Virus record (IMG/VR): IMGVR_UViG_3300020442_001032
Coordinates: 1-48,728 of that record
DNA length: 48,728 nucleotides
Strand: one strand, 5' to 3'
DNA from: a virus
In this document: piece by piece, positions 1,306 through 15,386 of the stretch
Position numbering within the stretch: position 1 is the stretch's first letter
How the letters are laid out: each line of letters begins with the position of its first letter
Translations under genes and position numbers: made by a program
The notes under the pieces: model-generated
Told to the model about the DNA's origin: nothing
What the model saw: the letters and a program-made list of their open reading frames with translations, nothing else
Databases searched by the model: none

Positions 1306-2133
1306 TTACTGGAGAGCTGATTGGGTTGCTTCTCTGTGTTTCTCTTCTAATTCTTGTCCTGCGATCCTACCATTGTAAGGATCGAAGTTTGTGATCATAT
1401 CCAGAGTCATATCAGAACCACGGGTCTCCCACAGTTCTCTCAGACCATTGTGACTGCCTCTATGGAAAATCTCAATGTGTTCTGGGTGGATTGAACTTCC
1501 CAATTCTATCTTATAAAGTAAAATTGGGCAAGCATATGAAGCACCTGAGTTGTAGATAAGATCATCAGCAACTGGACGGGGCTTCACACCGTTGTCCAAA
1601 CGATACATATCACCTCTGCAATGGAGATCGATAAGTTTCTTGGCGTGGTGACGGGTGATTACATAACATGCAGTGGAGAAATCATTAATGAATCTGCGAT
1701 GAATATTAACATGCAGTTCTCCAGGGCAGATGATAGCCAACTGTACCACGTCCCAATCGTATGGAACCCTAGACATAAACTGACGAAAAGTAAATGTCCA
1801 GTATCTAGCGATATTAATATCGCAATCGTCTTCCATGATGACTGCATATGGATCGTCAGTCTCTTCATAGAAGTGTTTGATAGCTTTGAGATGCGATGTG
1901 ACACAGCCAATCTCACCTGAAGAAACACTGTCAGGGTACTTACCCTTAAGAATTTCTCCTAGGTCACTACCTTCATTAGGTCTGCCATCGTAGGCAGAAA
2001 TTCTAGTATAGTCGGTGATCTCCCAGTAGTCAAGTTGTTCCTTACACCAGTTCCACCTATCAGGTTCACCATCAAGATTGATGATGTATGGCTTAAAGCC
2101 TTTCAGTTTGTATGCTGATTTATTCTTGTCCAT
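1306..2133 (-). CDS. GT25-family glycosyltransferase
   Basis: Family 25 glycosyltransferases transfer galactose or glucose to LPS or to hydroxylysine. Visible hallmarks are YIINLDGEPDRW near the N-terminus, GEIGCVTSHLKAI, and AVIMEDDCDI (the acidic metal-binding segment), in the family order. Length of about 275 residues fits. I use the ATG giving MDKNKSAYKLKG rather than a TTG three codons upstream. The start lies inside the end of the upstream 2OG-oxygenase-like gene, which implies coupling. It is the last gene of the sugar operon. The acceptor (host LPS or a phage protein) cannot be read from sequence. Confidence 0.85.
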   Translation of the reverse strand: MDKNKSAYKLKGFKPYIINLDGEPDRWNWCKEQLDYWEITDYTRISAYDGRPNEGSDLGEILKGKYPDSVSSGEIGCVTSHLKAIKHFYEETDDPYAVIMEDDCDINIARYWTFTFRQFMSRVPYDWDVVQLAIICPGELHVNIHRRFINDFSTACYVITRHHAKKLIDLHCRGDMYRLDNGVKPRPVADDLIYNSGASYACPILLYKIELGSSIHPEHIEIFHRGSHNGLRELWETRGSDMTLDMITNFDPYNGRIAGQELEEKHREATQSALQ

Positions 2134-2626
2134 CAATATCAAAAAAGAATACTTGTGTAAGTCTACTTGTTTCTAGAGTATCTCCAAAACCAGGAAGAAT
2201 ACTCCTATGATACAACACTCTGCCGCGATATGCAACCAGCCTATTGTACTTATTACCAACCGCAATGTTCATGTCACTATCAACCCCGTCATATATTCCA
2301 GTCCCAGAATCAATCGGAGCATCTGGAGTTAAGTAAAGGACCGCAGCCCATTCAGCATCGGTATCCTTATGTACATAAGTCTCAGTACCCTCCTGACAGG
2401 ACTGGAAACAGAAGGTATCGTTTTTCCAATACCATCTGACCTTACCATTAAGTGCCTTGCTTAACTTAGATTCTATCTCAGTTTGTAAGGATCCACCAAG
2501 ACCTTTGGTTGATCTAACACCAGGCACTCTCTCATCATATCGATCATAATCGAAACTGAGAGCAATATGTCTGATCTTATCTGGATCATCTAAGAAATTA
2601 TCAATAACAATTAGATTTTTATCCAT
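2120..2626 (-). CDS. 2OG-Fe(II) oxygenase-like protein (DUF6445 type)
   Basis: A 168-residue protein with the facial-triad pattern of 2-oxoglutarate/iron oxygenases: H86-x-D88 in YVHKDTD, a distal H140 in RVLYHRS and R155 in ETSRLTQVFFFD as candidate 2OG anchor. The opening NLIVIDNFLDDPDKIR is typical of DUF6445-like proteins in marine phages. Such enzymes hydroxylate proteins or small molecules; the substrate is unknown. It overlaps the GT11 gene upstream and the GT25 gene downstream by a few codons, so it is firmly part of the glycan operon. Confidence 0.75.
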   Translation of the reverse strand: MDKNLIVIDNFLDDPDKIRHIALSFDYDRYDERVPGVRSTKGLGGSLQTEIESKLSKALNGKVRWYWKNDTFCFQSCQEGTETYVHKDTDAEWAAVLYLTPDAPIDSGTGIYDGVDSDMNIAVGNKYNRLVAYRGRVLYHRSILPGFGDTLETSRLTQVFFFDIDGQE

Positions 2627-3468
2627 TGCGGGCAGTATAGGTCAGAGGTATCTTTATCTGCATAGTCAGGACCGAACCAAGTCTTAGGTGCAACTACCTT
2701 ACCTCTACCGTTCTGCAACCATGCACCCCACCAAGAGAGGGAAGAGTTGGCAATGATAGCACCGCTGCATAGACTCATGATACAGAGGTCTACGAAGGGT
2801 TCCCAGGACCCGTCTGCATACTTCTCAGTGGGTTCAGAGATAAGGAAACGATCATCATCAAAGAGAGACTGTTCCGCTGCCCACTCAGGAGAGTCTGAAC
2901 AAATAACAACTGGTTGATCCTCAGGAAACTCCTTCAGAGCTTCCTCGTAATAGGCCAACGGTTGTGGTGGATGTTGCGACGAGCATTGCGTGTACGACCA
3001 CTTAAATCCCCTAGCATCGACGAGGTTAGGATCACCCCGACGAACGTGAAGAAAGATAGGCGGCGAATCCAACGAATCAATAAGTTCTTGGCAAGGTTTG
3101 AGGATTGAATCATGGAAGGTAAAGTCTCTTCGGATGTCCATCTCAATGTTTTTGAAATACTTCTCACTCTGGAAGAAACCAAACAGACTTACGTCATTAG
3201 GACACATTCTGTGTAGTTCTTCGTCGAAGTGATAGTGTTTCTCAATGACAACAGGAGCATGTCCATTGTCAAGTTCTTTTAAATTACTCGACGTTACACT
3301 AGGCAACGTGAATGCTCTATGTAGGCTATAATTGTCTACACGTCTTGAATCGAAAGGTGGAATACCGAATTCATATCCACGCATTGCAGCGATACCTCGC
3401 ACCGCAGCATACTGAAACATTTGGTTACCTAGACGACCTAGGTTACCCATTTGATTAAACGCTAGCAT
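2611..3468 (-). CDS. GT11 alpha-1,2-fucosyltransferase-like protein (copy 1)
   Basis: GT11 enzymes move L-fucose from GDP-fucose to a galactose hydroxyl. The N-terminal GNLGRLGNQMFQYAAVRG, the central PIFLHVRRGDPN (HxRRxD nucleotide-binding motif) and the C-terminal SGAIIANSSLSWWGAWLQ are the three family landmarks, all intact, in 285 residues. One of three GT11 paralogues in the operon, overlapping both neighbours by about five codons. Donor sugar may be GDP-L-fucose or, given the GME-like enzyme encoded upstream, GDP-L-galactose; this is inference. Confidence 0.88.
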   Translation of the reverse strand: MLAFNQMGNLGRLGNQMFQYAAVRGIAAMRGYEFGIPPFDSRRVDNYSLHRAFTLPSVTSSNLKELDNGHAPVVIEKHYHFDEELHRMCPNDVSLFGFFQSEKYFKNIEMDIRRDFTFHDSILKPCQELIDSLDSPPIFLHVRRGDPNLVDARGFKWSYTQCSSQHPPQPLAYYEEALKEFPEDQPVVICSDSPEWAAEQSLFDDDRFLISEPTEKYADGSWEPFVDLCIMSLCSGAIIANSSLSWWGAWLQNGRGKVVAPKTWFGPDYADKDTSDLYCPQWIKI

Positions 3469-4291
3469 TGAGTTCCTTCCCCCTATTTTTAATGTAGTCT
3501 AGTGTTGAATAATATTTTGTAAGAGATTCCTTATCCTGTCTACGAATCCAATTCCAGAGACGATCATTGTCTTGGAACTTAGGATTGTGGTAGTGAGAAT
3601 TAAATGTTCTACCATGTTCAAAATGATAGATGTCATCAACAACTCTACCTACTTTAAATCCAAACAGGTTGAGGCGGTAGTAGAACTCACAGTCTTCTGC
3701 ACCCCAAGAAATAAACTCTTCATTCCACATACCAGCAGACACTTCTGCTGACTTAGTAATCATCTGTCCCCATCCAATAGAGGAAGGGATACGAACTTTG
3801 TTATCCGTAAGAACATCAAAGTCAAAGTCACTACCGTCATGAGACGACAAGAACTTATCTAGAAGTTGATCTCCATAGTTAACCGCCCACTGATAGATGC
3901 CACACCCAAAAGGATAAACTGCATCCGAACCCTCCTTTGTAATGGAGTGGTAAGCAAGTTCATGACTGTTCTTGGGTACAACAACATCAACATCATGATT
4001 GTACACAATAGGAGTGTCTGCTGCAACACAAAGATCATTCAGAATCCTAGTCTTATGAAAGAACTTTTCTTCACTCTGTTCAAAAATGAGTTTAAGTTGA
4101 CTTGTATCTCCAACGTACTTTTTAATTTGAGGTAGAGCACTCTCAGTAAAATGAGACTGTGTATCTACCTCTTTCACCAAGACCTTTGCCTCAGGAAAGT
4201 TTTTTAGAATATAAGTTACAGAAGTAATAACATTACGGAGACGGTCATCCGTCTCAATTCTGCAAGGTAATAGGTATGTTAAGTCTTTCAT
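3455..4291 (-). CDS. glycosyltransferase, GT2/GT27-like (GT-A fold)
   Basis: A 278-residue protein opening with LTYLLPCRIETDDRLRN, a common start of GT-A glycosyltransferases. VYNHDVDVVVP carries a DxD metal/nucleotide motif, and FISWGAEDCEFYYRLNLFG is the galactosyltransferase C-terminal signature (W-G-x-E-D-x-E). Donor and acceptor are unknown. Its start shares bases with the stop of the upstream gene, and its end overlaps the start of the first GT11 copy. Confidence 0.82.
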   Translation of the reverse strand: MKDLTYLLPCRIETDDRLRNVITSVTYILKNFPEAKVLVKEVDTQSHFTESALPQIKKYVGDTSQLKLIFEQSEEKFFHKTRILNDLCVAADTPIVYNHDVDVVVPKNSHELAYHSITKEGSDAVYPFGCGIYQWAVNYGDQLLDKFLSSHDGSDFDFDVLTDNKVRIPSSIGWGQMITKSAEVSAGMWNEEFISWGAEDCEFYYRLNLFGFKVGRVVDDIYHFEHGRTFNSHYHNPKFQDNDRLWNWIRRQDKESLTKYYSTLDYIKNRGKELNASV

Positions 4292-4830
4292 TATGATGGT
4301 CCTGGTGGTGGTTCTTGTAAATAAACATTTCCTGAAATGGTTTCTCCTTCGTTGCCACTCATAACAAAGTGTTCAATCCATGAAGGAAATATAATTATGT
4401 GGCCTGATGGTATGATTGGAACAAAATCCATAGGAATAGTGTTCATATACATCCCCCATTGATTCATGATAGTTTTCCTGGCAGGATTCATAAAGACTGT
4501 TCGCGAATGTTCGACAGACTTATAGATTATAAAACTCCATTGAGCACCAGAATGTATATGTGGATCCTGCCAATCATTTTTCTCATACCTATTCCTCCAT
4601 GTTTGACCTATCCAAAAAGGATCATTAGAAAACCTACCAATACATTCACCAATAATACCATGAAGGTACTCATATGATTCTTGAGTAAGTTCATCCTTCC
4701 TTAACGTGGTAGGAATTCCACTCATAAACGATGGACTAAACTCAGCATCTTCATCTCTAAATGATACCTTATCTAAGTCAATCTCTTGAATGAAACAGGG
4801 AGTATGAAATGCAGGAATTGGTTCGCTCAT
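4291..4830 (-). CDS. 2OG-Fe(II) oxygenase-like protein
   Basis: A 179-residue cupin-like protein with DPHIHSGAQWSFIIY (H91, H93) and HIIIFPSWIEHFV (H154), the layout of the 2OG-FeII_Oxy_5/TIGR02466 group. The Arg expected near the end to bind 2OG is not seen (ETISGNVYL), so catalysis is less certain than for the related genes in this window. It sits between two GT genes with start/stop overlap on both sides, arguing for a role in glycan or glycoprotein modification. Confidence 0.68.
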   Translation of the reverse strand: MSEPIPAFHTPCFIQEIDLDKVSFRDEDAEFSPSFMSGIPTTLRKDELTQESYEYLHGIIGECIGRFSNDPFWIGQTWRNRYEKNDWQDPHIHSGAQWSFIIYKSVEHSRTVFMNPARKTIMNQWGMYMNTIPMDFVPIIPSGHIIIFPSWIEHFVMSGNEGETISGNVYLQEPPPGPS

Positions 4831-5753
4831 TCTGGTTTAATAAACGATGGATCATTATGAACCTTAGTCCATCGAGATGGAATGAGATCCTTCATATCAT
4901 AGTGAGCATAAGCAGGTCCAAACCAAGGGTCGGGAGCAACAACTGTCCAAGTTTTTTGGACAGAATTCTTACCCATCTTATCACCACTTTTCTGCAACCA
5001 TGCACCCCACCAAGACAATGATGAGTTAGCAATGATAGCACCGCCACACAGTGTCATAAGACAGAGGTCAATGTAAGGTACAGATGCACCATCACCAAAC
5101 TCTTCATAAGAAGCATCAGAGAAGTAAAATCTATCTCCCTGCAACCAGTCCTGTTCTTTGCACCAGTCAATAGTATCTGATACAACTACAACATTCTTAT
5201 CTTCTGGGAATTTTTGTAGTGCTTCTAGGTAATACTCTTTCTTACAGATAGGATGATACTCTTGAACCATCTGGTAAGACCACTTCTCTCCACGTCTACC
5301 AGTCACATTAGGATTACCTCTGCGAACATGTAGAAAAATAGTGTTGTCCTGTCCGCCAATTTCGTCAATAAACTCTTGGCAGGGTTCAAGATATTCTTTC
5401 TTGAACGTAAAGTCATCACGGATATCACAGGAAATACTTTCAAAGTATCTCTCAGTCTGATAATTACCTGAGAAATTAGTATTATCCTCACACTCATTGT
5501 AGATCTTCTCATTGAATGCCAGGTCCCTATAGACTTCCTGTTTATGGAAGAAGGGTTCACCTTGGTTCTCTGGTTTGCAACCGTTCAATTCAAACGCTTC
5601 AAACAAACCATAGTTGTCAAGTCTGTCTGCATCAGGGCCAGGAATAACCCAGTCAAATCCACGGTTAGCAGCGACACCACGGACGAAAGCATACTGGAAC
5701 ATTTGATTTCCCAGTCTACCTTCATTACCCATTCCTTGAAATGAAATAGCCAT
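4827..5753 (-). CDS. GT11 alpha-1,2-fucosyltransferase-like protein (copy 2)
   Basis: A 308-residue paralogue of the other GT11 proteins: GRLGNQMFQYAFVRGVA at the N-terminus, TIFLHVRRGNPN in the middle (HVRRGN, Asn in place of the last Asp) and GGAIIANSSLSWWGAWLQ near the C-terminus. It carries a small insertion after that last motif (KSGDKMGKNSVQKTW) compared with copy 1. Its stop overlaps the next gene's ATG. Confidence 0.87.
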   Translation of the reverse strand: MAISFQGMGNEGRLGNQMFQYAFVRGVAANRGFDWVIPGPDADRLDNYGLFEAFELNGCKPENQGEPFFHKQEVYRDLAFNEKIYNECEDNTNFSGNYQTERYFESISCDIRDDFTFKKEYLEPCQEFIDEIGGQDNTIFLHVRRGNPNVTGRRGEKWSYQMVQEYHPICKKEYYLEALQKFPEDKNVVVVSDTIDWCKEQDWLQGDRFYFSDASYEEFGDGASVPYIDLCLMTLCGGAIIANSSLSWWGAWLQKSGDKMGKNSVQKTWTVVAPDPWFGPAYAHYDMKDLIPSRWTKVHNDPSFIKPE

Positions 5754-6613
5754 TATTTACTCCAATCTAAAGTTTGCCAGTATGCAGGTACAATCTGACT
5801 TGTATCAAGATGTTCCATTGCGGATCCAAACCACTTCTCTGGGTTCGGTGCAATGACATTGCCTCTACCGTTCTGTAACCATGCACCCCACCAACTAAAT
5901 GAACTGTTGGCAATGATAGCACCAGAACATAGAGACATGAGACACAGATCTACCTGAGGCAGAAGAGTGTTCTGTAGTTGACCAGTGCCATCACGATTCT
6001 GATATGGATACCTACCGTTGTCTTCGTTGAACAAGAACCTATCTTGTTTGAAGAACGATTGTTCCTTACACCAATCAAGATCATCAGTAAAGACAAAACA
6101 AGGAGTGTCTTCACTCCAGAAACTTAACGCCTCCTCAAAAAATGATATCGGGAGGATGGGGTGATACTCTTCCCTTCCGATGTTGTCAGACTGGCGAACA
6201 TGCAAGAAAATAGGAGGAGTGTCCAGACTATCAATAAAACCTTTACAAGGTTCCAAGTAATCTTTTCTAAAGGTGAAGTCCTCACGGATCTCATCAGCAA
6301 TGTGAACAAAGTAATTCTCTGTCTGCATATAGGCATCAATGTTGACGCCATCTGTACAGTAGAAAAGACTCTCGTCAAATGCGTGAGTCTTCTCATTGAT
6401 TGTCATCGCATCATTGAAACCAATGTTCTCTGGTTTGCAATGAACCATCTCAAAGGTCTCAAAGAGACCATAATTATCACGGTGATTACAATCTTCTGGA
6501 GGAATCATCCAGTTGTAATGATTGTAATTAGCAATGCCTCTAAGGGAAGCATACTGAAACATTTGATTACCCAAACGTCCATTGCTTCCCAACCTATTAT
6601 AACTAATCGTCAA
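5753..6613 (-). CDS. GT11 fucosyltransferase-like protein (copy 3, TTG start)
   Basis: A 286-residue GT11 paralogue with GSNGRLGNQMFQYASLRG and SGAIIANSSFSWWGAWLQ. The central motif reads FLHVRQSDN instead of HVRRGD, so the second conserved Arg is Gln. The start is a TTG that overlaps the TGA of the dehydrogenase gene upstream (TTGA). It is supported because the N-terminus MTISYNRLGSNGRLG lines up with MAISFQGMGNEGRLG of copy 2 and no ATG is available before the first motif. Whether the changed motif alters donor use is unknown. Confidence 0.83.
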   Translation of the reverse strand: MTISYNRLGSNGRLGNQMFQYASLRGIANYNHYNWMIPPEDCNHRDNYGLFETFEMVHCKPENIGFNDAMTINEKTHAFDESLFYCTDGVNIDAYMQTENYFVHIADEIREDFTFRKDYLEPCKGFIDSLDTPPIFLHVRQSDNIGREEYHPILPISFFEEALSFWSEDTPCFVFTDDLDWCKEQSFFKQDRFLFNEDNGRYPYQNRDGTGQLQNTLLPQVDLCLMSLCSGAIIANSSFSWWGAWLQNGRGNVIAPNPEKWFGSAMEHLDTSQIVPAYWQTLDWSK

Positions 6614-7761
6614 AGGTCAATCCTCCAAGTTGGTTCATAAATCTCGGCTTCATTTCTGACAAAGATGATGCGATCATCATACTTGTCATATAGATCATCA
6701 GCATACTTTTCAATAACATCAGAGATGTCCTGAACATATACTGTGTATCCTCTTTCCAGAAGATCTGTTACGAGTCTATACCTTGGACTCTCTACAACCA
6801 TATCAGATCCTTTCTTGAAAGCAATGCTCTCGATACAATATGGGAGATTGTCAACGTTCTGTTCGATACAATAGTTACAGATAAACTCTGCATGTGTATC
6901 ATTGAAGTCATCCGTGACCTTAGGGAGACTATACTGTAGACCAACTCTATCAGCATAGTGCCCTAAAGCACGGTTGTCTCGGGGCAAACAAGGGCCACCG
7001 AAGCCTAACCCGTAACGTAGATATTTAGAACCGATTCTAGAGTCGTCTCCAATAGAACTGAGGATAGAATCAATCTCATTTCCACACCCTGAGTTGTATA
7101 GGATTTGTCCCATCATGTTGGCATAACTGATCTTGTATGTAAGGAAACAGTTGATACCAATCTTTGTAATCTCTGCCGCAGTGCGAGACATTTCATGGAA
7201 CCTGACAGGAGTGTCTTGAATATCCTCAAAGATACCCTTGATAGTATCAAAACCTTCTTCATCTTCACCACCACAGAGAACCATGTCTGCGGTTTTCATG
7301 TCATTAATAATAGTACCCTGAGCAATAAACTCTGGGTTATAATAAACCCGAATACCTCTGGAAGACAGAGCCTCTGCAAACTTGTCAGAGTATCCAGGGT
7401 TAGTAGTGCAACCAATCACAAAGATCTTTCCCTCTAGATTAGGGAAGTTGACAAGATCTTCTAGTACATCATCAACATAAGAACAATCGTAACTGCCATC
7501 CTCTAGTGAGGGAGTAGGTACGAAAGTAAAAATAACATCAGATCTCTTGATGACCTCAGAGTTAGAAGTTGTGGCAGTCAACTTAGTTGTCCGCATCAAC
7601 ATGTCTTCTACTTCTGGTTCATTAGTGTAGATCTCTTTGTTAGTAAGTCCAGAGATATACTTTGAGTTAATGTCAGATACAATTACATCATGACCAGCAT
7701 CTTCACACAGCAGTGCAAAGCAGAGACCTAACCTGCCTGCACCAATCACACCAAGTTTCAT
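6610..7761 (-). CDS. ugd: UDP-glucose/GDP-mannose 6-dehydrogenase family
   Basis: These enzymes oxidise a nucleotide sugar to the uronic acid in two NAD-dependent steps. Seen: Rossmann motif VIGAGRLG at residues 5-12, VIFTFVPTPS, YNPEFIAQGT, the helix AAEITKIGINCFLTYK and catalytic C258 in GFGGPCLPRD. Length of 383 is slightly short of the usual 390-450. UDP-glucose versus GDP-mannose as substrate cannot be decided from these motifs. NAD demand may explain the NAD+ synthetase gene immediately upstream, whose stop overlaps this ATG. Confidence 0.88.
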   Translation of the reverse strand: MKLGVIGAGRLGLCFALLCEDAGHDVIVSDINSKYISGLTNKEIYTNEPEVEDMLMRTTKLTATTSNSEVIKRSDVIFTFVPTPSLEDGSYDCSYVDDVLEDLVNFPNLEGKIFVIGCTTNPGYSDKFAEALSSRGIRVYYNPEFIAQGTIINDMKTADMVLCGGEDEEGFDTIKGIFEDIQDTPVRFHEMSRTAAEITKIGINCFLTYKISYANMMGQILYNSGCGNEIDSILSSIGDDSRIGSKYLRYGLGFGGPCLPRDNRALGHYADRVGLQYSLPKVTDDFNDTHAEFICNYCIEQNVDNLPYCIESIAFKKGSDMVVESPRYRLVTDLLERGYTVYVQDISDVIEKYADDLYDKYDDRIIFVRNEAEIYEPTWRIDL

Positions 7762-8522
7762 TATTCCTCCAAAAGATACGTGGGAATGGGATCAATCTTA
7801 TGTCTATTTTGTGTATAGAACTTCTGCAATACTGGAAGAGCTGGACCTGAACCAGTTTCCATTGCCTCTTCTAGTTGTTCATAGGTTGCACCAATCTGAT
7901 CTTCATCAGTGCGACCATCATCCCACAGACCATCTGTGGGTTTAGCGTCAATAATCTCAGGAATTACTCCGAGGAATCGTCCGAGTTCTCGGACTTCTGT
8001 TTTGTAAAGGTCAGCAATTGGAGCAATGTCAATGCCACCATCACCGTACTTAGTATAAAAACCGATACCATAGTCTTCTACTTTGTTGCCAGTACCAACT
8101 ACAAGACCACCAACAGATTGTGCAATCTGATAGAGAGTCATCATGCGGAGGCGGGACCGACTATTCGCCTTCGCAAGATCGTTGATAGCATACTCCACAC
8201 CACACTCATCACCAATAGTAGAAACAAACTTACCAAAAGTTTCAGAGAGATCTACCTTGAGAACTGTGACGTTTTCATATGTCTTTTCCAACCAGAACAG
8301 ATGAGCATCGGAAAGAGTTTCTTGTTCTAGTTTCTGATTGATCGGCATACCCACAGCATAGACAGGCAGACCAGTCTTTGCTGCAAGTGTGGACGCAACA
8401 GCAGAATCAATTCCACCCGATACACCCACAACAAATCCATTTAATTTATTCTGATCATTATACCTACACAACCAACCGACTATATTACATGTCAGTTTTA
8501 GATAATCTGTAATACGGTTCAT
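7761..8522 (-). CDS. nadE: NH3-dependent NAD+ synthetase
   Basis: NadE converts nicotinate adenine dinucleotide to NAD+ using ATP and ammonia. The PP-loop GVSGGIDSAVAST (about residues 33-45), RSRLRMMTLYQIA, GTGNKVEDYGIGFYTKYGD and the following GDGGIDIAPIADLYKTEV are family hallmarks. At 253 residues it is the short form without a glutaminase domain. It lies between heme oxygenase and the NAD-dependent sugar dehydrogenase with overlapping starts and stops. It would raise NAD supply for the several Rossmann enzymes of the operon; this link is inference. Confidence 0.93.
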   Translation of the reverse strand: MNRITDYLKLTCNIVGWLCRYNDQNKLNGFVVGVSGGIDSAVASTLAAKTGLPVYAVGMPINQKLEQETLSDAHLFWLEKTYENVTVLKVDLSETFGKFVSTIGDECGVEYAINDLAKANSRSRLRMMTLYQIAQSVGGLVVGTGNKVEDYGIGFYTKYGDGGIDIAPIADLYKTEVRELGRFLGVIPEIIDAKPTDGLWDDGRTDEDQIGATYEQLEEAMETGSGPALPVLQKFYTQNRHKIDPIPTYLLEE

Positions 8523-9199
8523 CGAAAAATAAAGCCAAAGAGTACATTGAGGAAGGATCGGATACCATTACTATCCTTAGTGATCTCATCGAACATATAC
8601 ATGTTCAATCTAAAAGCATAGTTAGCTTCTGCTACCAGTGCATTGACCTGAGACTCTGACAAATCAAGAGAGTCTAGTCTTTCTCTATATTGTTTTTTAA
8701 ATTCTTTAGTGTCTGAAATCTTTTTGAATCCATAGAAAGCAAGACCCTGTTGATCCAAGTTCAATGCCTTCTGTGCAATATTCTTAAGGATCTGTCCACC
8801 AGAAAGATCTCCAAGGTATCTGGTGTAGTGATGTGCAATAAGAAGATAAGGTTCTTCCTTTGCAATCTCTCTAATACGATGGACATATGTATCTGTGGAT
8901 GGACACTTCTTATCAGCCATCTCACGTCTCCAACATGGACCATAGAAGTACCTAAGATCCAAACCAATAGAAGACTCTCTATGAAGTTCATCCATAACAA
9001 TAGGACCAACAAGAGGATCTTCTCTCAACTTATTCAGTTCTTGTTCCATGGCATCATAGACGTAGTATAGGTTAGAAAGTAGTTGGCTATAACTATCTTT
9101 ACTAACCACACCCTTTAGAAACGATGCGACAAAGTTTGTATTCTCCGCCATGGAGTGGGACTCTTTAGTCCCAGTTTTCAATGCACTACTCAGTTTCAT
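8519..9199 (-). CDS. ho1: heme oxygenase
   Basis: Heme oxygenase opens heme to biliverdin, CO and iron using ferredoxin, the first step of phycobilin synthesis in cyanobacteria. The start MKLSSALKTGTKESHSMAEN contains the proximal heme ligand (H15). YYVYDAMEQEL, AHHYTRYLGDLSGGQIL and the C-terminal NYAFRLNMYMFDEI match cyanobacterial HO1. Length of 226 is slightly shorter than host forms. Cyanophages often pair this gene with a bilin reductase; none is visible in this window. It overlaps the methyltransferase gene upstream and nadE downstream. Confidence 0.95.
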   Translation of the reverse strand: MKLSSALKTGTKESHSMAENTNFVASFLKGVVSKDSYSQLLSNLYYVYDAMEQELNKLREDPLVGPIVMDELHRESSIGLDLRYFYGPCWRREMADKKCPSTDTYVHRIREIAKEEPYLLIAHHYTRYLGDLSGGQILKNIAQKALNLDQQGLAFYGFKKISDTKEFKKQYRERLDSLDLSESQVNALVAEANYAFRLNMYMFDEITKDSNGIRSFLNVLFGFIFR

Positions 9200-9974
9200 C
9201 CTCTTTCCTTGTAGCTAGAATGACTGTGTTCTCATAGTCACGTCCAACGTCGAAGGTAAACTCCTCCTTGATACGATCAATGAAAACATTATAATGGTTA
9301 TCATTAAAATTGACAAGGTTATAGATGATGTATGCATACTTAGCGTTCTGAATAATCAGATTAAAATATGCCATCTGTGAATCCAAGTCACATTCAGACA
9401 GAGCATAGTTACTAATGAAGAGATCTACATCCTTAATCTCATCCAATTCTGTAGTAGGAATACAGGTAACTTTATCTTTAAGGTCGGGGAACTGATCCAA
9501 ATACTTACGTTGCAAAGCACTGACCTCAGGGAGATCAACTAGAATATACTCATCAAATTCACAGACCATACTGAGAACTCTACACAGTCCACCATATCCA
9601 CCACCAACTTCTACAATCTTACTAACCTCTGCACCATTAAGCATGAATGACATCTCAAAGGTATTCTTCATATACCTGAGAGTTGTTGGAGAGACGGCAC
9701 CATCGAGGCCAGGGTAAGGGAAAGTCTCTGGATTGCCGTACTTATCATTCTCTTTAAAGAGTTCGATGTTTTGTTCGACTCCTTCCTCACTCATCTCCCT
9801 ACAGATGTTGAGATAACATTGTCCTTGATCCTTCAGTACATGTTCTAGAATAGTTTTATACTTAGGGTTAGATTTAAAATTAGCAAAGGCATCATCATCA
9901 GCAACAGCTTCTTTACATGCCTCAAGATATTCAACGGCAATTTGATCTTCTGCCTGCCATCCGCTACGTGTCAT
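9186..9974 (-). CDS. putative sugar O-methyltransferase
   Basis: A 262-residue SAM-dependent methyltransferase: IVEVGGGYGGLCRVL is motif I, followed by EYILVDLPEV and DLFISNYALSECD. The N-terminal helical region and GLDGAVSPTTLRYMKN resemble the putative sugar O-methyltransferase group found in LPS and capsule clusters. The acceptor is probably a sugar of the glycan made by this operon. It overlaps genes on both sides. Confidence 0.78.
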   Translation of the reverse strand: MTRSGWQAEDQIAVEYLEACKEAVADDDAFANFKSNPKYKTILEHVLKDQGQCYLNICREMSEEGVEQNIELFKENDKYGNPETFPYPGLDGAVSPTTLRYMKNTFEMSFMLNGAEVSKIVEVGGGYGGLCRVLSMVCEFDEYILVDLPEVSALQRKYLDQFPDLKDKVTCIPTTELDEIKDVDLFISNYALSECDLDSQMAYFNLIIQNAKYAYIIYNLVNFNDNHYNVFIDRIKEEFTFDVGRDYENTVILATRKEDETE

Positions 9975-10930
9975 AATGGTTTAATCCTCTGAGATCTTTG
10001 TGGGTCTAATTGTACAAAATAATTTTGATAAAGATAGTCTTCTGCGACTCTCATATTCAAAGCAATTTCAAAGTTTTCTTTGATAGCTTCCTTCTTTGAT
10101 TCGTAATACTCGGAAGTCAATTTGTCCCAAGGAATATTATTCCAAGGTTGTCCTTCATCCAAGAAGATAATACCTTCTGGATTAAAATACTGTGCTACAC
10201 CAGCAGTACCATAGTATACAGGAATAGTACCACAAGCAAAGCAGTCAGTCAATTTCTCTGTGAAATAGGTAGGATAGTTTGCATTCTCTACTGCGAAGGA
10301 GAACATATAATCCCTAAGTGCTCTAGACTTTTCCGTAAGAGGAAGTTCTTGAGGAAGTCCCCAACCAAATAGACTATCACCGCCTTCATGTTGAAAGAAT
10401 TGTTCTACTACTTTGAGACGACGCTGGTGTCCCACAGTATATCCTTTGTTAGATGCGACCATTGAGACAAGTTTTGACTTGGGGTAGATGTCTCGATCCA
10501 TAACCCAAGGAGCAGCATTAGAGAGGCAATAAAGAAATTTACCGTCAGGACCAACCTCATCCGTGAGTCTTTGGTCAGCAGTAAAAATGCCATCCACACG
10601 ACTAGCAACAAAATCATAGTTTTCTTCAATGAATTTGTATTGATCTGGAATGATCTCTCTTGATTCTAACAGCCAAATAAATTTTGGCAAGTCGGAGTTA
10701 TCTTCCAGAGCCTTAAGGGCCAAACTATTTACATATAAATTGACGTAACCAGATCCATCATGTACCCATTGAGTATAGACAGATCTGTTATTAGCCGATG
10801 TAGATGGAAGTAGATCGTCGTTACAAATCAGATTGATTGGAAACTTTCTTGAGGCATCAAGTACTGGAACATCAATACCTGTTGGGGATGCGGCCGCCTT
10901 TTCAACAACATCTTTAATTTTATTATCCAT
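9971..10930 (-). CDS. GT10-family alpha-1,3/1,4-fucosyltransferase-like protein
   Basis: A 319-residue protein whose second half has the GT10 C-terminal domain: FSFAVENANYPTYFTEKL, then DCFACGTIPVYYG, then EGIIFLDEG. The family transfers L-fucose from GDP-L-fucose to GlcNAc or glucose. The N-terminal half (KFIWLLESREIIPDQYKF) is the variable acceptor domain. With the three GT11 proteins this makes four enzymes of fucosyl-type families in one operon. Its ATG overlaps the end of the SDR gene upstream. Confidence 0.88.
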   Translation of the reverse strand: MDNKIKDVVEKAAASPTGIDVPVLDASRKFPINLICNDDLLPSTSANNRSVYTQWVHDGSGYVNLYVNSLALKALEDNSDLPKFIWLLESREIIPDQYKFIEENYDFVASRVDGIFTADQRLTDEVGPDGKFLYCLSNAAPWVMDRDIYPKSKLVSMVASNKGYTVGHQRRLKVVEQFFQHEGGDSLFGWGLPQELPLTEKSRALRDYMFSFAVENANYPTYFTEKLTDCFACGTIPVYYGTAGVAQYFNPEGIIFLDEGQPWNNIPWDKLTSEYYESKKEAIKENFEIALNMRVAEDYLYQNYFVQLDPQRSQRIKPL

Positions 10931-11771
10931 AATGAGGTTTCATATCGTTATAGACTTTTTCGATTCCATCTTCGATGGATGTTTTTGGACTCCAGATTTT
11001 TTTAATCGTTTCGTCTGGGACATTACGAGCATCCTTCTGCACCTCGTCTTTGGATGCTGCGGGAACAACTTGAACTTCTTTACCGTCTTTTGCAAAAAGT
11101 CCCTTAATGATTTCTCCAACTGCCAGAATATTTGTACTGACAAAAGAAGTAATATGAAGAGGGTCAAAAGAGGTGAACTTATGATAGTTTTCCATGACCG
11201 CCTCAAGAGCCTCACAGCAATCTTCAGCGTAAAGGAACTCTCTCTGTTCTGTACCATCGGTTAGCATATCAATAGTACCTGTCTCAAATCCCTTCCTGAT
11301 GAAATCAGTAATGACATGAGCCTTGTCCATGTCCTTTTCGATTCCATATACATTCCAGAACTTAACGATCAATCCATTCAGAGACTCAGTATATAGTTCA
11401 CCCATACGTTTCATAACTCCGTATGGAGAGTAACTCATCTGACTCATCTGGGATGATGCAAAGACAAATGGTTTTTTATACTGTTCAAGCAACCCAAAAG
11501 TCTGAGTCATCAGACGAGAATTGTTATCAATAAACCTGAAAGTATGTTGATACTTCTTCAGATACCTAGATCCACCCACATCAAAGGCCAAGAAGAACAC
11601 AAAGTCAGAGTTCTTAATGGCGCGATCTAGATTATGATTAGGGATCTGTGTAAGATCTTCACCAGGATGACGTGCAACGTCAAACGGTACAACTTCATGA
11701 CCTTTCTTAGTAAGATATTCAGCCAGGTATGCACCTACCTGGCCACTAGATCCAAGAATTAGAATTTTCAT
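10923..11771 (-). CDS. NAD-dependent epimerase/dehydratase (extended SDR)
   Basis: Extended short-chain dehydrogenase with Rossmann motif LGSSGQVGAYLAEYL at the N-terminus, FASSQMSQMSYSPYGVMKR containing the catalytic YxxxK, and FWNVYGIE. Sugar-nucleotide epimerase, dehydratase or reductase activity is likely; the exact reaction is unclear. I choose the ATG that forms ATGA with the stop of the upstream methyltransferase gene over a TTG two codons upstream. Confidence 0.82.
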   Translation of the reverse strand: MKILILGSSGQVGAYLAEYLTKKGHEVVPFDVARHPGEDLTQIPNHNLDRAIKNSDFVFFLAFDVGGSRYLKKYQHTFRFIDNNSRLMTQTFGLLEQYKKPFVFASSQMSQMSYSPYGVMKRMGELYTESLNGLIVKFWNVYGIEKDMDKAHVITDFIRKGFETGTIDMLTDGTEQREFLYAEDCCEALEAVMENYHKFTSFDPLHITSFVSTNILAVGEIIKGLFAKDGKEVQVVPAASKDEVQKDARNVPDETIKKIWSPKTSIEDGIEKVYNDMKPHYG

Positions 11772-12355
11772 GCCCAATCAATTACATGTTTAGAACCAAA
11801 GTTTACTAGTCCTGTTCCACTCATGTGACCGACTTCAGTAACATCAATCTTAGGTTCTTCAATAGCATCCCACATGTCTTGAACTTCAGGCCAAGCAGGA
11901 CCAATGTCATCGAGGAGAAGAATTCCTTTCCAACCTTTCTCTTCTAGGAACTCCATCATCTCCACTTCCTGAACACCATCATGGGGATCTACATCAATCA
12001 TGATGATAGAGATCTTGTCCCACTCAAGCGTCTCATCCTCTCGGAAGTCTTGAATCTTGAAGGTGATGTTATCTTTTTCAATCTGACTTGCACCTTGTTC
12101 AACCAGATCATAACTAATGACCTTATTGGTTTCGTTATAAGACAGTGCCAGTGCAGACCCACCGTTACGTGTACCTACATCCAGAATGTAGGATTGATTG
12201 AAGAACGTAGAAAGATATCCATAGAGACGATACTCACTCTGTCCCGCAGACAACCAGTCATTAGGGTTGAGAGAGATAGCCTCAAGAGCAGAGTGATCTA
12301 GATTCTGTACGTCTTCCTTGTTGATTTTAATAGTTTTCTTAGTGACCTTACGCAT
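11768..12355 (-). CDS. class I SAM-dependent methyltransferase
   Basis: A 195-residue protein with motif I YILDVGTRNGGSALALS, VISYDLVEQG (acidic end of strand 2) and ISIIMIDVDPHDG, as in the Methyltransf_24/CmcI-like group that methylates sugars or small molecules. The final third contains LLLDDIGPAW. Its stop overlaps the next ATG and its start overlaps the end of the GME-like gene, so it probably acts on the same sugar pathway. Confidence 0.75.
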   Translation of the reverse strand: MRKVTKKTIKINKEDVQNLDHSALEAISLNPNDWLSAGQSEYRLYGYLSTFFNQSYILDVGTRNGGSALALSYNETNKVISYDLVEQGASQIEKDNITFKIQDFREDETLEWDKISIIMIDVDPHDGVQEVEMMEFLEEKGWKGILLLDDIGPAWPEVQDMWDAIEEPKIDVTEVGHMSGTGLVNFGSKHVIDWA

Positions 12356-13409
12356 TTACCAATTCCTTTTGTGACGAAGTTTCAACCGCTTTGCGGGATT
12401 TAATTTGTTCAGAGATCCAAGCATAAGTCTTGGCGATACCCTCTTCTAGGGTCTGACTGTAGTCCCATCCAAGTTTTTCGCGGATGAGATCATTGTTAGA
12501 GTTACGACCACGAACACCAAGAGGTGCATCGAGTTTATGGTTCTTAGTAATAACCTTACCAGATACCTTGGCAGCAGTGGCAACTAGTTCATTAATAGTT
12601 ACCATCTCCTCAGAACCAATATTAACTGGTCCCATGAACTCACTGTCCATCAGACGGCGGGTTGCTTCAATACATTCATCGATGTACAAGAAGGATCTAG
12701 TTTGTAGGCCATCTCCCCACACCTCAATAGCTCCACCCGTCTCAGGGACGTAGGCGACCTTTCTACAAATTGCTGCGGGAGCCTTCTCACGTCCACCTTC
12801 CCAAGTTCCCTCAGGTCCAAAGATGTTGTGATAGCGAGCAACCCGAACAGGAATATTATAGTTACGGTTATAAGCAAAGTAGACACGTTCAGAGAAAAGT
12901 TTCTCCCATCCATATTCGGAGTCTGGGTCTGCTGGGTATGCGGATTCTTCACGGCAATCAGGGTTATCAGGGTCCAGTTGATTACGTTCTGGGTACATAC
13001 AGGCAGAAGAACTGTAGAAGATCTTCGTCTTATTACAACCCCTGATCTGATTAGCCTTATGAACTGCATCCAAAACATTCAAGTTAATGGAAGCAGAATT
13101 ATGCATAATATCTGCCGAGTGTTCATCAGTAAAGATGTATCCTGCACCACCCATATCAGCAGCGAACTGATAGATTTCATCGAAGGTATCCTTACCAACC
13201 TGCACCAGTTTTCTGACTGCCTCTGCATCCCTAAGATCATCTCTTCGGAATTCATCTGCTGCAGACTCAGAGAACTCAGGGTACTTAATATCAACGCCGC
13301 GAACCCAGTACCCTTCGGACTTGAGGCGTTTTACCATGTGACTCCCAATAAAGCCACCAGCACCAAGCACCAGTGCTGTCTTCTGAACTGTCATAGAATC
13401 GTTAATCAT
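12348..13409 (-). CDS. GDP-mannose 3,5-epimerase-like SDR
   Basis: GME converts GDP-D-mannose to GDP-L-galactose (and GDP-L-gulose); it is best known from plant ascorbate synthesis. The protein has Rossmann GAGGFIGSH at 16-24, FAADMGGAGYIFTDEH (matching the GME loop around the active site), C137 in SSSACMYPE, Y166 and K170 in SEYGWEKL, and NIFGPEGTWEGGREKAP, a stretch I know mainly from GMEs. Cys, Tyr and Lys of the GME active site are all present. Length of 353 fits. GDP-mannose would come from the host. An alternative ATG five codons in (MTVQKTALVLG) is possible. Confidence 0.83.
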   Translation of the reverse strand: MINDSMTVQKTALVLGAGGFIGSHMVKRLKSEGYWVRGVDIKYPEFSESAADEFRRDDLRDAEAVRKLVQVGKDTFDEIYQFAADMGGAGYIFTDEHSADIMHNSASINLNVLDAVHKANQIRGCNKTKIFYSSSACMYPERNQLDPDNPDCREESAYPADPDSEYGWEKLFSERVYFAYNRNYNIPVRVARYHNIFGPEGTWEGGREKAPAAICRKVAYVPETGGAIEVWGDGLQTRSFLYIDECIEATRRLMDSEFMGPVNIGSEEMVTINELVATAAKVSGKVITKNHKLDAPLGVRGRNSNNDLIREKLGWDYSQTLEEGIAKTYAWISEQIKSRKAVETSSQKELVNA

Positions 13410-13416
13410 TACGTTG

Positions 13417-13424
13417 TATTTAGT
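13417..13424 (-). promoter_or_regulatory. late-promoter-like box before the GME-like gene
   Basis: ACTAAATA on the minus strand, including the stop codon of the upstream SDR gene. The same variant occurs before two structural genes in the window. It is only 7 bases from the first ATG, which would leave almost no leader, so the box may be coincidental. Confidence 0.25.
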
Positions 13425-14172
13425 GGGGTTGTGGATCGTTCACATCAAGGATATCAATGGTCGGAAACCAACCCATTTCTCTCATCTTTGTAGTGTCGGC
13501 AACCAATTCATCAGGTTCATGAGGAGTTTCTTTCTTTATAGGTAGGTGTCCCTGACCCATAATTTGTGCCAACTCTAGTACCGATGTAGATTTTCCAGTA
13601 CCAATATCAATAGTACCACAATAACTACTTGGAATCAAATATGCAATGGCTCTACACACATCAGAAACATGAATCCAATCACGTCTATGATTTGTAAGAT
13701 ACCCAGCAGTATTATCTTTTAACATTCGGTAAAGCATATCTTCCCGACTGTCTTGTTCCGCCCACACATTGAAAAATCTCATCCCAACACTGTTAGGAGG
13801 AGCCATGGCTTCATTTACTTTTTTAGTAGTGGCATATGGATTCCTCCACCACTCATAAACACCAGCAGAACTGGCATATAATAGTCGGGTTTCAGTGTCC
13901 CTGCAATAATCAAAAATAGGTTTGGATTTTTCTACATTATTTTCCCAGAATGTTTCTGGATCATCAATACTATCCCTTAGATTTGCAAAGGCAGCAAGGT
14001 GAATAACACAATCAAACTTTGGAGTAAAAAGATCTGCATACTCATTGAAGTTAGCAATATCACATGGAAAATCTAACCCAACAACATTCTCTCCAAGAGC
14101 AAGTTCATACTTAAGATGATACATGAGAGCCTTACCAATAAAACCCTCACTACCTGTTACTAAAATCCTCAT
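13420..14172 (-). CDS. NAD-dependent epimerase/dehydratase (extended SDR)
   Basis: Rossmann motif VTGSEGFIGKALMYHL, CVIHLAAFANLRDS, LLYASSAGVYEWWRNPYATTK with catalytic S/Y/K, and RDWIHVSDVCRAIAYL are all typical of UDP-glucose 4-epimerase-type SDRs. At 250 residues it is shorter than the usual 310-340, mainly in the C-terminal substrate domain, so the substrate cannot be guessed. It lies one base before the plastoquinol oxidase gene's stop, within the same operon. Confidence 0.83.
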   Translation of the reverse strand: MRILVTGSEGFIGKALMYHLKYELALGENVVGLDFPCDIANFNEYADLFTPKFDCVIHLAAFANLRDSIDDPETFWENNVEKSKPIFDYCRDTETRLLYASSAGVYEWWRNPYATTKKVNEAMAPPNSVGMRFFNVWAEQDSREDMLYRMLKDNTAGYLTNHRRDWIHVSDVCRAIAYLIPSSYCGTIDIGTGKSTSVLELAQIMGQGHLPIKKETPHEPDELVADTTKMREMGWFPTIDILDVNDPQPH

Positions 14173-14173
14173 G

Positions 14174-14677
14174 TCATTTAATAATTTGGATGGCGTTCAA
14201 TAATTCTTCTCGATGATTAATCTCATCATTCATTATTTCTTCAATTTTAACATCATCAGGATGATCTTTCAAGTATTTACTGTATGTGTGTGCTGCATGG
14301 TCTTCTACTTCGTAGGACAGATGGTATGCAGACTTAGGAGCCATCCAGTAATAAACCACATTGACCCAATAATAGATAAGTACGAGGTGTCTGGCGACAA
14401 AGCGATCCACCCAATAAGCATTACCGCCCCTGCTCTCCATATACTCCAGATGTTCTGTTTCATTGACTGATTGTGCGAAGTGTTCTTTCATCAAGTAAAG
14501 ATGTTCTGGTCCACGTAGGCCTAGACTTTCTCTAAGATGCAACACACTCAAAAAAGCAAAATAGGGTGCTCGAGCAATCTCCTCAAGCACCCAAAATCTT
14601 TGAAAGTCTCTCCCACGATATAAGAAATCCAGTATTGCAACTGTAATCTTAAGAACTACCGTGTTAAATGTCTTCAT
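14174..14677 (-). CDS. ptox: plastoquinol terminal oxidase (alternative oxidase family)
   Basis: PTOX oxidises plastoquinol with O2 in thylakoid membranes and relieves over-reduction of the photosynthetic chain. All di-iron ligands of the alternative oxidase family are visible: E32 in LEEIARAPYF, E73 and H76 in NETEHLEYM, E125 in EVEDHAAHTY, and E152/H155 in NDEINHREEL. WVDRFVARHLVLIYYW is also typical. At 167 residues it is compact, as cyanophage versions are, and has no signal peptide. It overlaps the 2OG-oxygenase-like gene upstream by four bases. Confidence 0.93.
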   Translation of the reverse strand: MKTFNTVVLKITVAILDFLYRGRDFQRFWVLEEIARAPYFAFLSVLHLRESLGLRGPEHLYLMKEHFAQSVNETEHLEYMESRGGNAYWVDRFVARHLVLIYYWVNVVYYWMAPKSAYHLSYEVEDHAAHTYSKYLKDHPDDVKIEEIMNDEINHREELLNAIQIIK

Positions 14678-15363
14678 GCGTCCATTGAATCCATGTACTG
14701 TTTGTCATTTAGCCCTGCTGTCTGTACTTGTGACAACCCAATGGATCCTTGATACCATCCAGTCGCAATGTACTTATCAGACATAGGAGGGTTACCTCTA
14801 TGTAGATGAGTATAACTCCCAGGCCAAATTACGACAGTACCTTTAGTTGGTTTTATCTTCAATCCCTGATAGAGAAACTCAGTTTCTCCACCATCTTCAA
14901 CATCATTCAAGTAAACCATCCAAGCCATGGTTCTTGTGTTGAGGTTCCAATTAATGTTCTCCCCATGGAACAAATGATACCCCTCAGTGGGTTTCGTATG
15001 CTGCATCAAACATACAGAACTAACATAATTAAAGTTAGTCAAGTAAGGATACTGATTAATATAAACTCCCAAACACTGATTTACAAAACCCATCAAGTCC
15101 CTAGCTTCTCCAGGAGAGAATGCATCAAGACAGATTTGTTTATCCTTTACATGTGTATAATTTCTGGGGATGACTTGTTGAGCTTCATTCATGTAATTAA
15201 TAAGATAATCACAGAAGTCGGGGTTTACAGCTCCCCTATAAATTCCAATAAAGTCAGTGTGTTCGGGTTCAATATTGATACCCATGGGTTCATGATTCAT
15301 AATTGATTTGTATGCTCGCCACTTATTTTTGACTGAAATAAGAAACAGGCGGGGTAACCCCAT
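14674..15363 (-). CDS. prolyl-4-hydroxylase-like 2OG-Fe(II) oxygenase
   Basis: The double-stranded beta-helix core is visible: GYHLFHGEN (iron-binding His/Glu), AWMVYLNDVEDGGETEFLY, then KGTVVIWPGSYTHLHRG with the distal His and SDKYIATGW at the end. This arrangement is frequent in marine phages. Acceptor unknown; protein or sugar hydroxylation are both possible. I use ATG MGLPRLFL; a GTG two codons upstream and an ATG 21 codons downstream (MNHEPMG) are alternatives. The core starts only at about residue 30. Confidence 0.8.
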   Translation of the reverse strand: MGLPRLFLISVKNKWRAYKSIMNHEPMGINIEPEHTDFIGIYRGAVNPDFCDYLINYMNEAQQVIPRNYTHVKDKQICLDAFSPGEARDLMGFVNQCLGVYINQYPYLTNFNYVSSVCLMQHTKPTEGYHLFHGENINWNLNTRTMAWMVYLNDVEDGGETEFLYQGLKIKPTKGTVVIWPGSYTHLHRGNPPMSDKYIATGWYQGSIGLSQVQTAGLNDKQYMDSMDA

Positions 15364-15378
15364 CCGCACCAGTCGGCA

Positions 15379-15386
15379 TATTTATT
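15379..15386 (-). promoter_or_regulatory. late-promoter-like box (AATAAATA)
   Basis: AATAAATA on the minus strand, overlapping the stop codon of the upstream gene and 16 bases before the ATG of the prolyl-hydroxylase-like gene. It would allow late transcription of the sugar operon from PTOX onward. Support is the sequence match only. Confidence 0.4.

Follow-up and report, generated by a model that had tools for sequence, protein, structure and literature searches.

A GDP-mannose 3,5-epimerase beside fucosyltransferase-type enzymes in a cyanophage glycan operon: a candidate viral L-galactose route

Gene block behind a wcaG RNA leader

We analyzed a 48,728-base stretch of viral DNA, the whole of IMG/VR record IMGVR_UViG_3300020442_001032 (hereafter the window), and within it a gene block that encodes a GDP-mannose 3,5-epimerase-like protein (GME) together with one glycosyltransferase of family GT10 and three of family GT11. 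The record is a fragment of a T4-like cyanomyovirus genome that encodes NrdA, NrdB, DNA primase and baseplate/tail proteins; among annotated genomes, S-SSM7/S-SSM6a and Sf-FS3 are the closest to it. We propose, with a probability of roughly 0.55 based on sequence comparison, that GDP-L-galactose made by the GME would be the donor for one or more of these glycosyltransferases, with L-galactose replacing fucose.

The block runs on the minus strand from 15.3 to 1.3 kb and contains 18 co-directional genes, the 17 gaps between them ranging from -23 to +10 nt when the first gene is taken from the ATG at 15300. We adopted this start, although the open reading frame (ORF) as listed also offers an upstream GTG at 15369; the wcaG RNA ends seven bases ahead of the ATG. 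The GME, GT10 and all three GT11 genes thus share one block behind this leader. The order of the genes is mostly kept in the complete genomes of S-SSM7 and Sf-FS3 and in many IMG/VR contigs. The features central to our proposal are as follows.

15308..15405, minus strand: wcaG RNA (RF01761) leader, 64 bits against a gathering cut-off of 42, full model 1-98
12348..13409, minus strand: GME-like epimerase (PDB 2c59 at E 5e-88, active-site residues, tree)
11768..12355, minus strand: MT1, small methyltransferase-like protein (weak FtsJ match of 19.2 bits, below the cut-off of 24.1)
10923..11777, minus strand: SDR2, extended nucleoside diphosphate (NDP)-sugar SDR (homology, AF2 model)
9971..10930, minus strand: GT10, fucosyltransferase type (PF00852 at E 9.8e-9, 35.6 bits against a cut-off of 23.9)
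5753..6613, minus strand: GT11a, motif HVRQSD (PF01531, 57.6 bits against 23.9)
4827..5753, minus strand: GT11b, motif HVRRGN (PF01531, 53.1 bits against 23.9)
2611..3468, minus strand: GT11c, motifs HVRRGD and SSLSWWGAWL (PF01531, 69.1 bits against 23.9)

Identity of the epimerase

In a phmmer search of the PDB, the window epimerase matched the Arabidopsis GME (AtGME, 2c59) best, with 298.7 bits, followed by 8sg0, also filed as a GDP-mannose 3,5-epimerase (286.3 bits). Outside the chains filed as GME, no match exceeded 80.8 bits, and GDP-fucose synthetases reached 72.5 bits at most. Identity to AtGME is 48%, and the alignment with AtGME gives S135, C137, Y166, K170, N195, K209, R238 and R302 in the window protein. 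The residues named for this enzyme (GM35E in the literature) are a Ser/Tyr/Lys triad, a Cys-Lys pair, a Cys-acidifying Arg, a diphosphate Arg and a conserved Asn (PMC8787198). All eight are kept in each of 23 phage rows, picked from a set of 94 phage loci, and likewise in all 79 rows from genome contigs, these being the best 80 of at least 570 confirmed stretches with a homologue, less one (L114). In the Fcl of cyanophage S-SCSM1 the columns of C137, K209 and R302 hold C, H and K; that is, His/Lys replace the base Lys/Arg, which is the stated difference between GM35E and GMER (PMC8787198).

A tree of 51 rows from six families joined 29 GME rows, including AtGME, in one clade with support 100/99, and Fcl, Gmd, the UDP-sugar epimerases, SDR1 and SDR2 each formed a clade of their own; SDR1, encoded next to the GME in the window, grouped with its S-SSM7 homologue, away from GME. 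An earlier tree of 78 rows, with 49 of the 79 genome-contig rows, had joined AtGME to the long branch of SDR2, a placement that the program flagged as a long-branch doubt. The outgroups of that tree had extreme branches, and the inclusion of several members per family resolved the placement. In the earlier tree, 24 phage GME rows fell inside a set of 33 rows (98/99) that also included nine rows from genome contigs, two of these from Prochlorococcus and one from Pelagibacteraceae. The filing of some genome contigs deserves a remark: contig L100, filed as Rhodobacteraceae, has phage gene order and phage-level identity, and the GME neighbourhood of three contigs titled as Bifidobacterium breve or Klebsiella pneumoniae metagenome-assembled genomes (L104, L105, L152) makes these titles doubtful.

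The window protein is therefore very probably a GME, and by its sequence it would in all likelihood form GDP-L-galactose. An initial sequence-only reading of the window had placed a GME-like epimerase, a GT10 and three GT11 proteins in one operon and had pointed to the GME Cys, Tyr and Lys and to the GTWEGGREKAP segment. Both statements hold, with all five genes on the minus strand, the glycosyltransferase family matches above their cut-offs and the AtGME alignment in agreement, and its caveat that the protein might cluster with Fcl or UDP-sugar epimerases falls away with the 51-row tree. The identities Fcl, GalE and RmlB were rejected by the PDB search, the active-site residues and the tree; the first NCBIfam match is indeed NF047922 (Fcl), yet its 101 bits fall far short of the cut-off of 500. 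The idea that the GME serves ascorbate synthesis was set aside: no ascorbate-branch gene was noticed in the annotations, no dedicated search having been made.

Fucosyltransferase-type enzymes

GT10 and GT11 are known as families of fucosyltransferases, with EN...Y.TEK as the donor motif of GT10 and HxRRxD as the canonical donor motif of GT11, and GDP-L-galactose is GDP-L-fucose plus a 6-hydroxyl. The window GT10 carries AVENANYPTYFTEKL, a motif of the EN...YFTEK type, in a region that aligns with its nearest solved structure, the alpha1,3-fucosyltransferase of H. pylori (2nzw, E 9.2e-8). GT11c, for which phmmer gave no PDB match at E 0.01, fits the canonical motif, and RR[GT]D is found in 38 of its 38 homologues. 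The other two enzymes have altered motifs that prevail across their homologues: RRG[SN] in 22 of 23 for GT11b and RQ[SA]D in 22 of 30 for GT11a. This suggests that GT11a and GT11b use other donors. For several fucosyltransferases, the use of GDP-L-galactose is established (PMC8787198).

The association between the epimerase and these enzymes extends well beyond the window. Of the dereplicated phage GME loci, 33 offer 7.5 kb or more of downstream sequence, and 31 of these have a GT10/GT11 match downstream of the GME. The corresponding figure for genome-contig GME loci of at least 14 kb is 2 of 53, a weak control, since phage proteins served as queries.

Distribution of GME and gmd-fcl among phages

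The route to GDP-L-fucose is encoded by gmd and fcl, and the sequence-only reading had recognised no such pair. Within the window the GDP_Man_Dehyd matches are GME, SDR1 and SDR2. Since the window is a fragment, we examined the complete, syntenic genomes of S-SSM7 and Sf-FS3, which bore the statement out: there were no gmd matches at E 0.001 and no true fcl, the maximum with the fcl model being 94 bits, at the GME gene itself (455.3 bits for the S-SCSM1 Fcl).

We found GME in 37 cyanophage or marine phage records, out of 40 records matched in all. By comparison, NrdA matches came from 376 records with Synechococcus in their name and 61 with Cyanophage; GME phages are therefore a minority. IMG/VR contributed 203 stretches coding for a relative, and 80 of them were kept. 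As to annotation, ten of the 37 records label the gene as UDP-glucose 4-epimerase and ten as nucleotide-sugar epimerase, and the S-SCSM1 GenBank record is the only one with the label GDP-mannose-3',5'-epimerase.

Of these 37 records, 34 are among the 60 matches in one listing of the GT11 search (101 records, of which a second listing also gave 60). The remaining three are SynMITS9220M01, with a GT11 gene beside the GME, AG-345-O18, with a GT10 gene, and AG-345-D19, a 13.6-kb fragment. Cyanophage or marine records with GT10 numbered 16: thirteen have GME, two (both S-SRM01) have gmd and fcl, and one is a 5.4-kb AG-345-D19 fragment. A further three records with GT10 come from metagenomic phages, and two of these match Fcl as well.

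The two modules seldom occur together. Among 16 GME-bearing records (14 from the phage collection and two long IMG/VR contigs), S-SCSM1 is the only one with a true gmd, at 568.6 bits, and a true fcl, at 455.3 bits (NCBIfam cut-off 500). Bellamy (W04:172339-173298) and SynMITS9220M01 (W07:157124-158113) encode a Gmd-like protein that we did not count as Gmd, its score being about 165 bits against a curated cut-off of 415; it is possibly a GDP-heptose dehydratase. Conversely, four of five GT11-bearing phages tested that have no GME carry gmd, scoring 539-559 bits, as well as fcl, scoring 422-473 bits, namely P-SSM2, ACG-2014f (whose fcl match contains one internal TGA), S-SRM01 and DSL-LC02. Using the S-SCSM1 proteins as tblastn queries, we found both genes in DSL-LC03, S-SKS1, AG-345-E02 and AG-345-F15, and gmd in S-CAM7 beside an annotated GDP-L-fucose synthetase; the fcl of S-CAM7 is based on this annotation and was not among the matches listed (60 of 73) in the Fcl search.

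When the listed GT11-bearing genomes were grouped by hand into lineages, ten had GME only, six gmd-fcl only, one both (S-SCSM1) and one neither (B23), with a Fisher p of 0.0025 that is descriptive only because of the NrdA phylogeny considered below. This table leaves out the window, S-SKS1, the GME fragments AG-341-P01, AG-345-E15 and AG-345-L05, the gmd+fcl fragments AG-345-E02 and AG-345-F15, and AG-345-E08 (22.8 kb, neither seen). This near-exclusion of GME and gmd-fcl suggests that either sugar can serve as a decoration in place of the other.

Genomic slot and RNA leader

The two modules also occupy corresponding positions. In P-SSM2, T4-GC249, 250 and 251 precede gmd-fcl; in S-SM2, GC249 and 250 precede an SDR-GME pair with one small gene between; and in S-SSM7, GC249/250 lie ahead of the 2-oxoglutarate (2OG)-oxygenase, SDR and GME genes.

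The wcaG RNA precedes six of the 12 GME-only clusters examined (window, Sf-FS3, SynMITS9220M01, S-SM2 and Bellamy by scan, S-SCSM2R by annotation) and four of the six gmd-fcl-only clusters scanned (S-SRM01, S-SKS1, S-CAM7 and DSL-LC02; DSL-LC03 lay outside the scan). It was not found upstream of gmd-fcl in P-SSM2 and ACG-2014f. In S-SCSM1, with both modules, it is annotated upstream. The first gene after the RNA is GME in SynMITS9220M01 and Bellamy and gmd in S-SKS1, and at least one gene intervenes in the other clusters. That the motif precedes both GME and gmd-fcl operons hints at a tie to the supply of GDP-L-hexose and not to one particular gene. Weinberg et al. (2010) associated it, in sequences of marine and cyanophage origin, with genes for exopolysaccharide or high light (PMC2864571). 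A different element was seen in P-TIM68 (L093:7119-7314, plus strand), where a manA RNA of 176.9 bits lies upstream of talC and no wcaG RNA was found in the scanned stretch.

Other genes of the block

The remaining genes of the block, in order of transcription, are listed below.

14674..15300, minus strand: 2OG-Fe(II) oxygenase, first gene (PF13640 at E 3.4e-10)
14174..14677, minus strand: alternative-oxidase-family protein, second gene (PF01786, 52 bits)
13420..14172, minus strand: SDR1, short nucleotide-sugar epimerase/dehydratase (PF01370)
9186..9974, minus strand: MT2, whose S-SSM7 and Sf-FS3 counterparts are annotated as putative methyltransferase or sugar O-methyltransferase (no Pfam match at E 0.01)
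8519..9199, minus strand: heme oxygenase (PF01126, 253.4 bits)
7761..8522, minus strand: NAD synthase NadE (TIGR00552, 163.3 bits, above the cut-off)
6610..7761, minus strand: nucleotide-sugar dehydrogenase of UDP-glucose 6-dehydrogenase type (TIGR03026, 224.1 bits against a cut-off of 189.8)
4291..4830, minus strand: second 2OG-Fe(II) oxygenase (PF13759, 36.5 bits)
3455..4291, minus strand: GT7-C-domain glycosyltransferase (PF02709, 24.1 bits, barely above the cut-off of 23)
2120..2626, minus strand: DUF6445 protein (PF20043, 31.1 bits)
1306..2142, minus strand: GT25-type glycosyltransferase, final gene (PF01755, 49.5 bits)

The heme oxygenase gene has no match in the S-SSM7 or Sf-FS3 clusters, and among the loci compared it has a counterpart only in L012; SDR1 has no match in Sf-FS3. 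Just past the block, at 601-972 on the minus strand, is a gene for a small protein that by eye has a signal-peptide-like start and a beta-barrel-like look, and DUF680 genes occupy a comparable place in S-SSM7 and Sf-FS3.

Proposed role of the epimerase

We propose that the phage GME, encoded among the first genes of a glycan-modification operon, draws on host GDP-mannose during infection. The substrate should be at hand, since a match to the GDP-mannose-forming GMP/PMI (E 1e-60) was found in 110 of 121 sampled genomes of the family to which a Prochlorococcus genome belongs (completeness unstated), and for this reason hosts should supply GDP-mannose. The enzyme would oxidise C4, epimerise C5 and C3 through Cys137/Lys209, and re-reduce the product to GDP-L-galactose, with GDP-L-gulose as a by-product. 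One or more of the fucosyltransferase-type enzymes, most plausibly GT10 and GT11c, would then place L-galactose on a surface glycan where related phages place L-fucose. The purpose would presumably be an altered surface of the infected cell; that this changes receptor recognition or excludes other phages is a guess.

As gmd-fcl takes the corresponding slot in other cyanophages, sometimes behind the same wcaG leader, the GME may be a swappable replacement for the GDP-L-fucose module. In its general form, that one slot holds an interchangeable L-hexose module, either gmd-fcl or GME, each able to follow a wcaG RNA and each serving GT10/GT11 enzymes, with GME phages installing L-galactose, we put this forward tentatively, at slightly less than even odds.

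A number of observations weigh against our proposal. We know of no assay of a phage GME. Two of the 33 GME loci (L059, L082) have no GT10/GT11 match, and such genes are not enriched directly after the GME: they occupy 12 of 44 first ORFs compared with 19 of 85 second and third ORFs. These counts come from a mechanical ORF picker, whose starts may be mis-set, with the four of 48 representatives without a downstream ORF dropped; because of the absence of enrichment, we dropped adjacency as an argument. Given the altered motifs of GT11a and GT11b, a single donor for all three GT11 enzymes is unlikely. The initial idea that all four fucosyltransferase-type enzymes are fed L-galactose is hence doubtful; it is most plausible for GT10 and GT11c. 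The wcaG RNA was not found in the scanned GME clusters of S-SSM7, P-TIM68, Sf-CH5, S-T4, S-CAM9 and S-8S56. S-SCSM1 carries both modules, and B23 bears GT11 with neither. Finally, the complementarity is clustered on a 22-row NrdA tree, with three changes per trait and one independent pair on well-supported branches (three on all branches), which leaves a test no power.

The position of MT1 and SDR2 between GME and GT10 also counts against direct use of GDP-L-galactose, since it implies that the sugar may be modified further. One or both could convert GDP-L-galactose by epimerisation, oxidation/reduction or O-methylation, the sugar transferred being a derivative L-hexose. We consider this rather unlikely, though a serious alternative. 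The arrangement is shared by the window and many related phages, in which MT1 lies between GME and SDR2, and of the 33 long phage GME loci counted above, 16 have an SDR2 match; the other 17 have no such match downstream. In Bellamy, S-CAM9, S-8S56, SynMITS9220M01, S-SM2, Sf-CH5 and S-T4, moreover, a GT10/GT11 gene follows the GME directly. Two Prochlorococcus single-cell genomes (L101, 7998-11413, and L102) have GME, a close homologue of the phage SDR2, and manC as consecutive genes, a row that also fits GDP-mannose as the substrate. SDR2 keeps the YxxxK motif (Y117, K121), and its AlphaFold2 (AF2) model (pLDDT 84.2) has a predicted NDP-sugar SDR fold. Its Foldseek matches are nevertheless unspecific, and its PDB sequence matches are scattered over many NDP-sugar SDRs, so that its function is not assignable.

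A further explanation, somewhat less probable again, is that the GT10/GT11 enzymes use host GDP-L-fucose and that the GME feeds another glycosyltransferase. In the same 121 genomes, a gmd match (E 1e-90) was found in 75, 72 of them above the cut-off, and an fcl-type match (E 1e-80) in 72, none above the NCBIfam cut-off, and many hosts could therefore supply GDP-fucose. The reputation of both families as fucosyltransferases and the likeness of the window GT10 to the H. pylori enzyme point the same way. However, the cyanophages with their own gmd-fcl indicate that phages often do not depend on what the host supplies, and 15 of 16 GME records do without gmd-fcl, yet 34 of 37 are among the GT11 matches listed. 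The earlier suggestion that the phage may place L-galactose and not fucose is thus strengthened by the complementarity of GME and gmd-fcl and weakened by the possible host GDP-fucose.

That the transferred sugar is L-gulose is very improbable, since GDP-L-gulose, although a product of GM35E (PMC6678494, PMC8787198), is a mere by-product in the assayed enzymes and has a weaker link to fucosyltransferase-type enzymes than GDP-L-galactose. Just as improbable is a phage GME subfamily acting on another GDP-sugar, such as GDP-manno-heptose, in phages with heptose genes: phosphoheptose isomerase and/or heptose 7-phosphate kinase/heptose 1-phosphate adenyltransferase are annotated in the clusters of Bellamy (the isomerase within its glycan block), S-T4, Sf-CH5 and S-SM2, and Bellamy and SynMITS9220M01 have the Gmd-like protein, but the family matches of the window block include no heptose gene, the published active-site residues, including the diphosphate Arg, are those of the plant GME, and the Prochlorococcus GME neighbour is manC.

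Phage glycan genes are usually filed under lipopolysaccharide modification with the sugar unnamed, and here the sequences point to a swap of L-galactose for L-fucose. If our proposal is correct, it would describe a virus-encoded L-galactose route by which an infected cyanobacterium gains a surface sugar whose gene its family rarely has (GME was found at E 1e-80 in two of the 121 genomes, one being the Prochlorococcus genome used as centre), and the virus would thereby alter the outer glycan by a single oxygen atom. The function of the wcaG RNA motif would also be easier to place, its context being GDP-L-hexose supply. For annotation, GMEs filed as UDP-glucose 4-epimerase or nucleotide-sugar epimerase call for correction.

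Comparison with known systems

The closest known system is S-SCSM1 (NC_070962), published in 2022, which encodes gmd (ORF121), fcl (ORF122), GDP-mannose-3,5-epimerase (ORF123), an alpha-1,2-fucosyltransferase, an O-fucosyltransferase and NodZ (PMC9602691). The pairing of GME with fucosyltransferases in a lytic cyanophage thus has a precedent, and the sequence-only reading was wrong in knowing of no described system of this kind. Like the window phage, S-SCSM1 is lytic and T4-like, with GME beside fucosyltransferase genes and a wcaG RNA upstream, and its GME is 66% identical to that of the window. Unlike the relatives of the window, it has gmd and fcl directly ahead of the GME, whereas S-SSM7 and Sf-FS3 have the GME alone. 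The list of genes new to cyanophages in its description leaves out the GME, and the section on the cell-wall cluster does not put forward L-galactose replacing fucose (PMC9602691). A 2023 paper counts GDP-mannose-3,5-epimerase among cyanophage genes (PMC10665884). Among the open-licence PMC papers listed on this subject, with subscription papers outside this scope, we found no title or displayed abstract that puts GME forward as a stand-in for gmd-fcl.

With the plant and bacterial GM35E/GME, the phage enzyme shares the sequence family and, as in AtGME, the active-site residues; the Methylacidiphilum fumariolicum MfGM35E, a known bacterial representative, was compared as a family member and not by sequence. 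The context is different: AtGME serves ascorbate and cell-wall synthesis (PMC8787198), whereas the phage GME sits in a glycosyltransferase operon. Transfer of L-galactose from GDP-L-galactose by promiscuous fucosyltransferases is known for mur1 Arabidopsis, MmFUT8 and AtFucTA (PMC8787198). These examples with a GME-made donor are plant and mouse enzymes; for the phage GT10/GT11 proteins such transfer is proposed. The gmd-fcl clusters of P-SSM2, ACG-2014f, S-CAM7, S-SRM01, DSL-LC02, DSL-LC03 and S-SKS1 resemble the window block as glycan operons with genes annotated as GT11 or fucosyltransferase, and they differ from it in that all seven encode the route to GDP-L-fucose and not to GDP-L-galactose.

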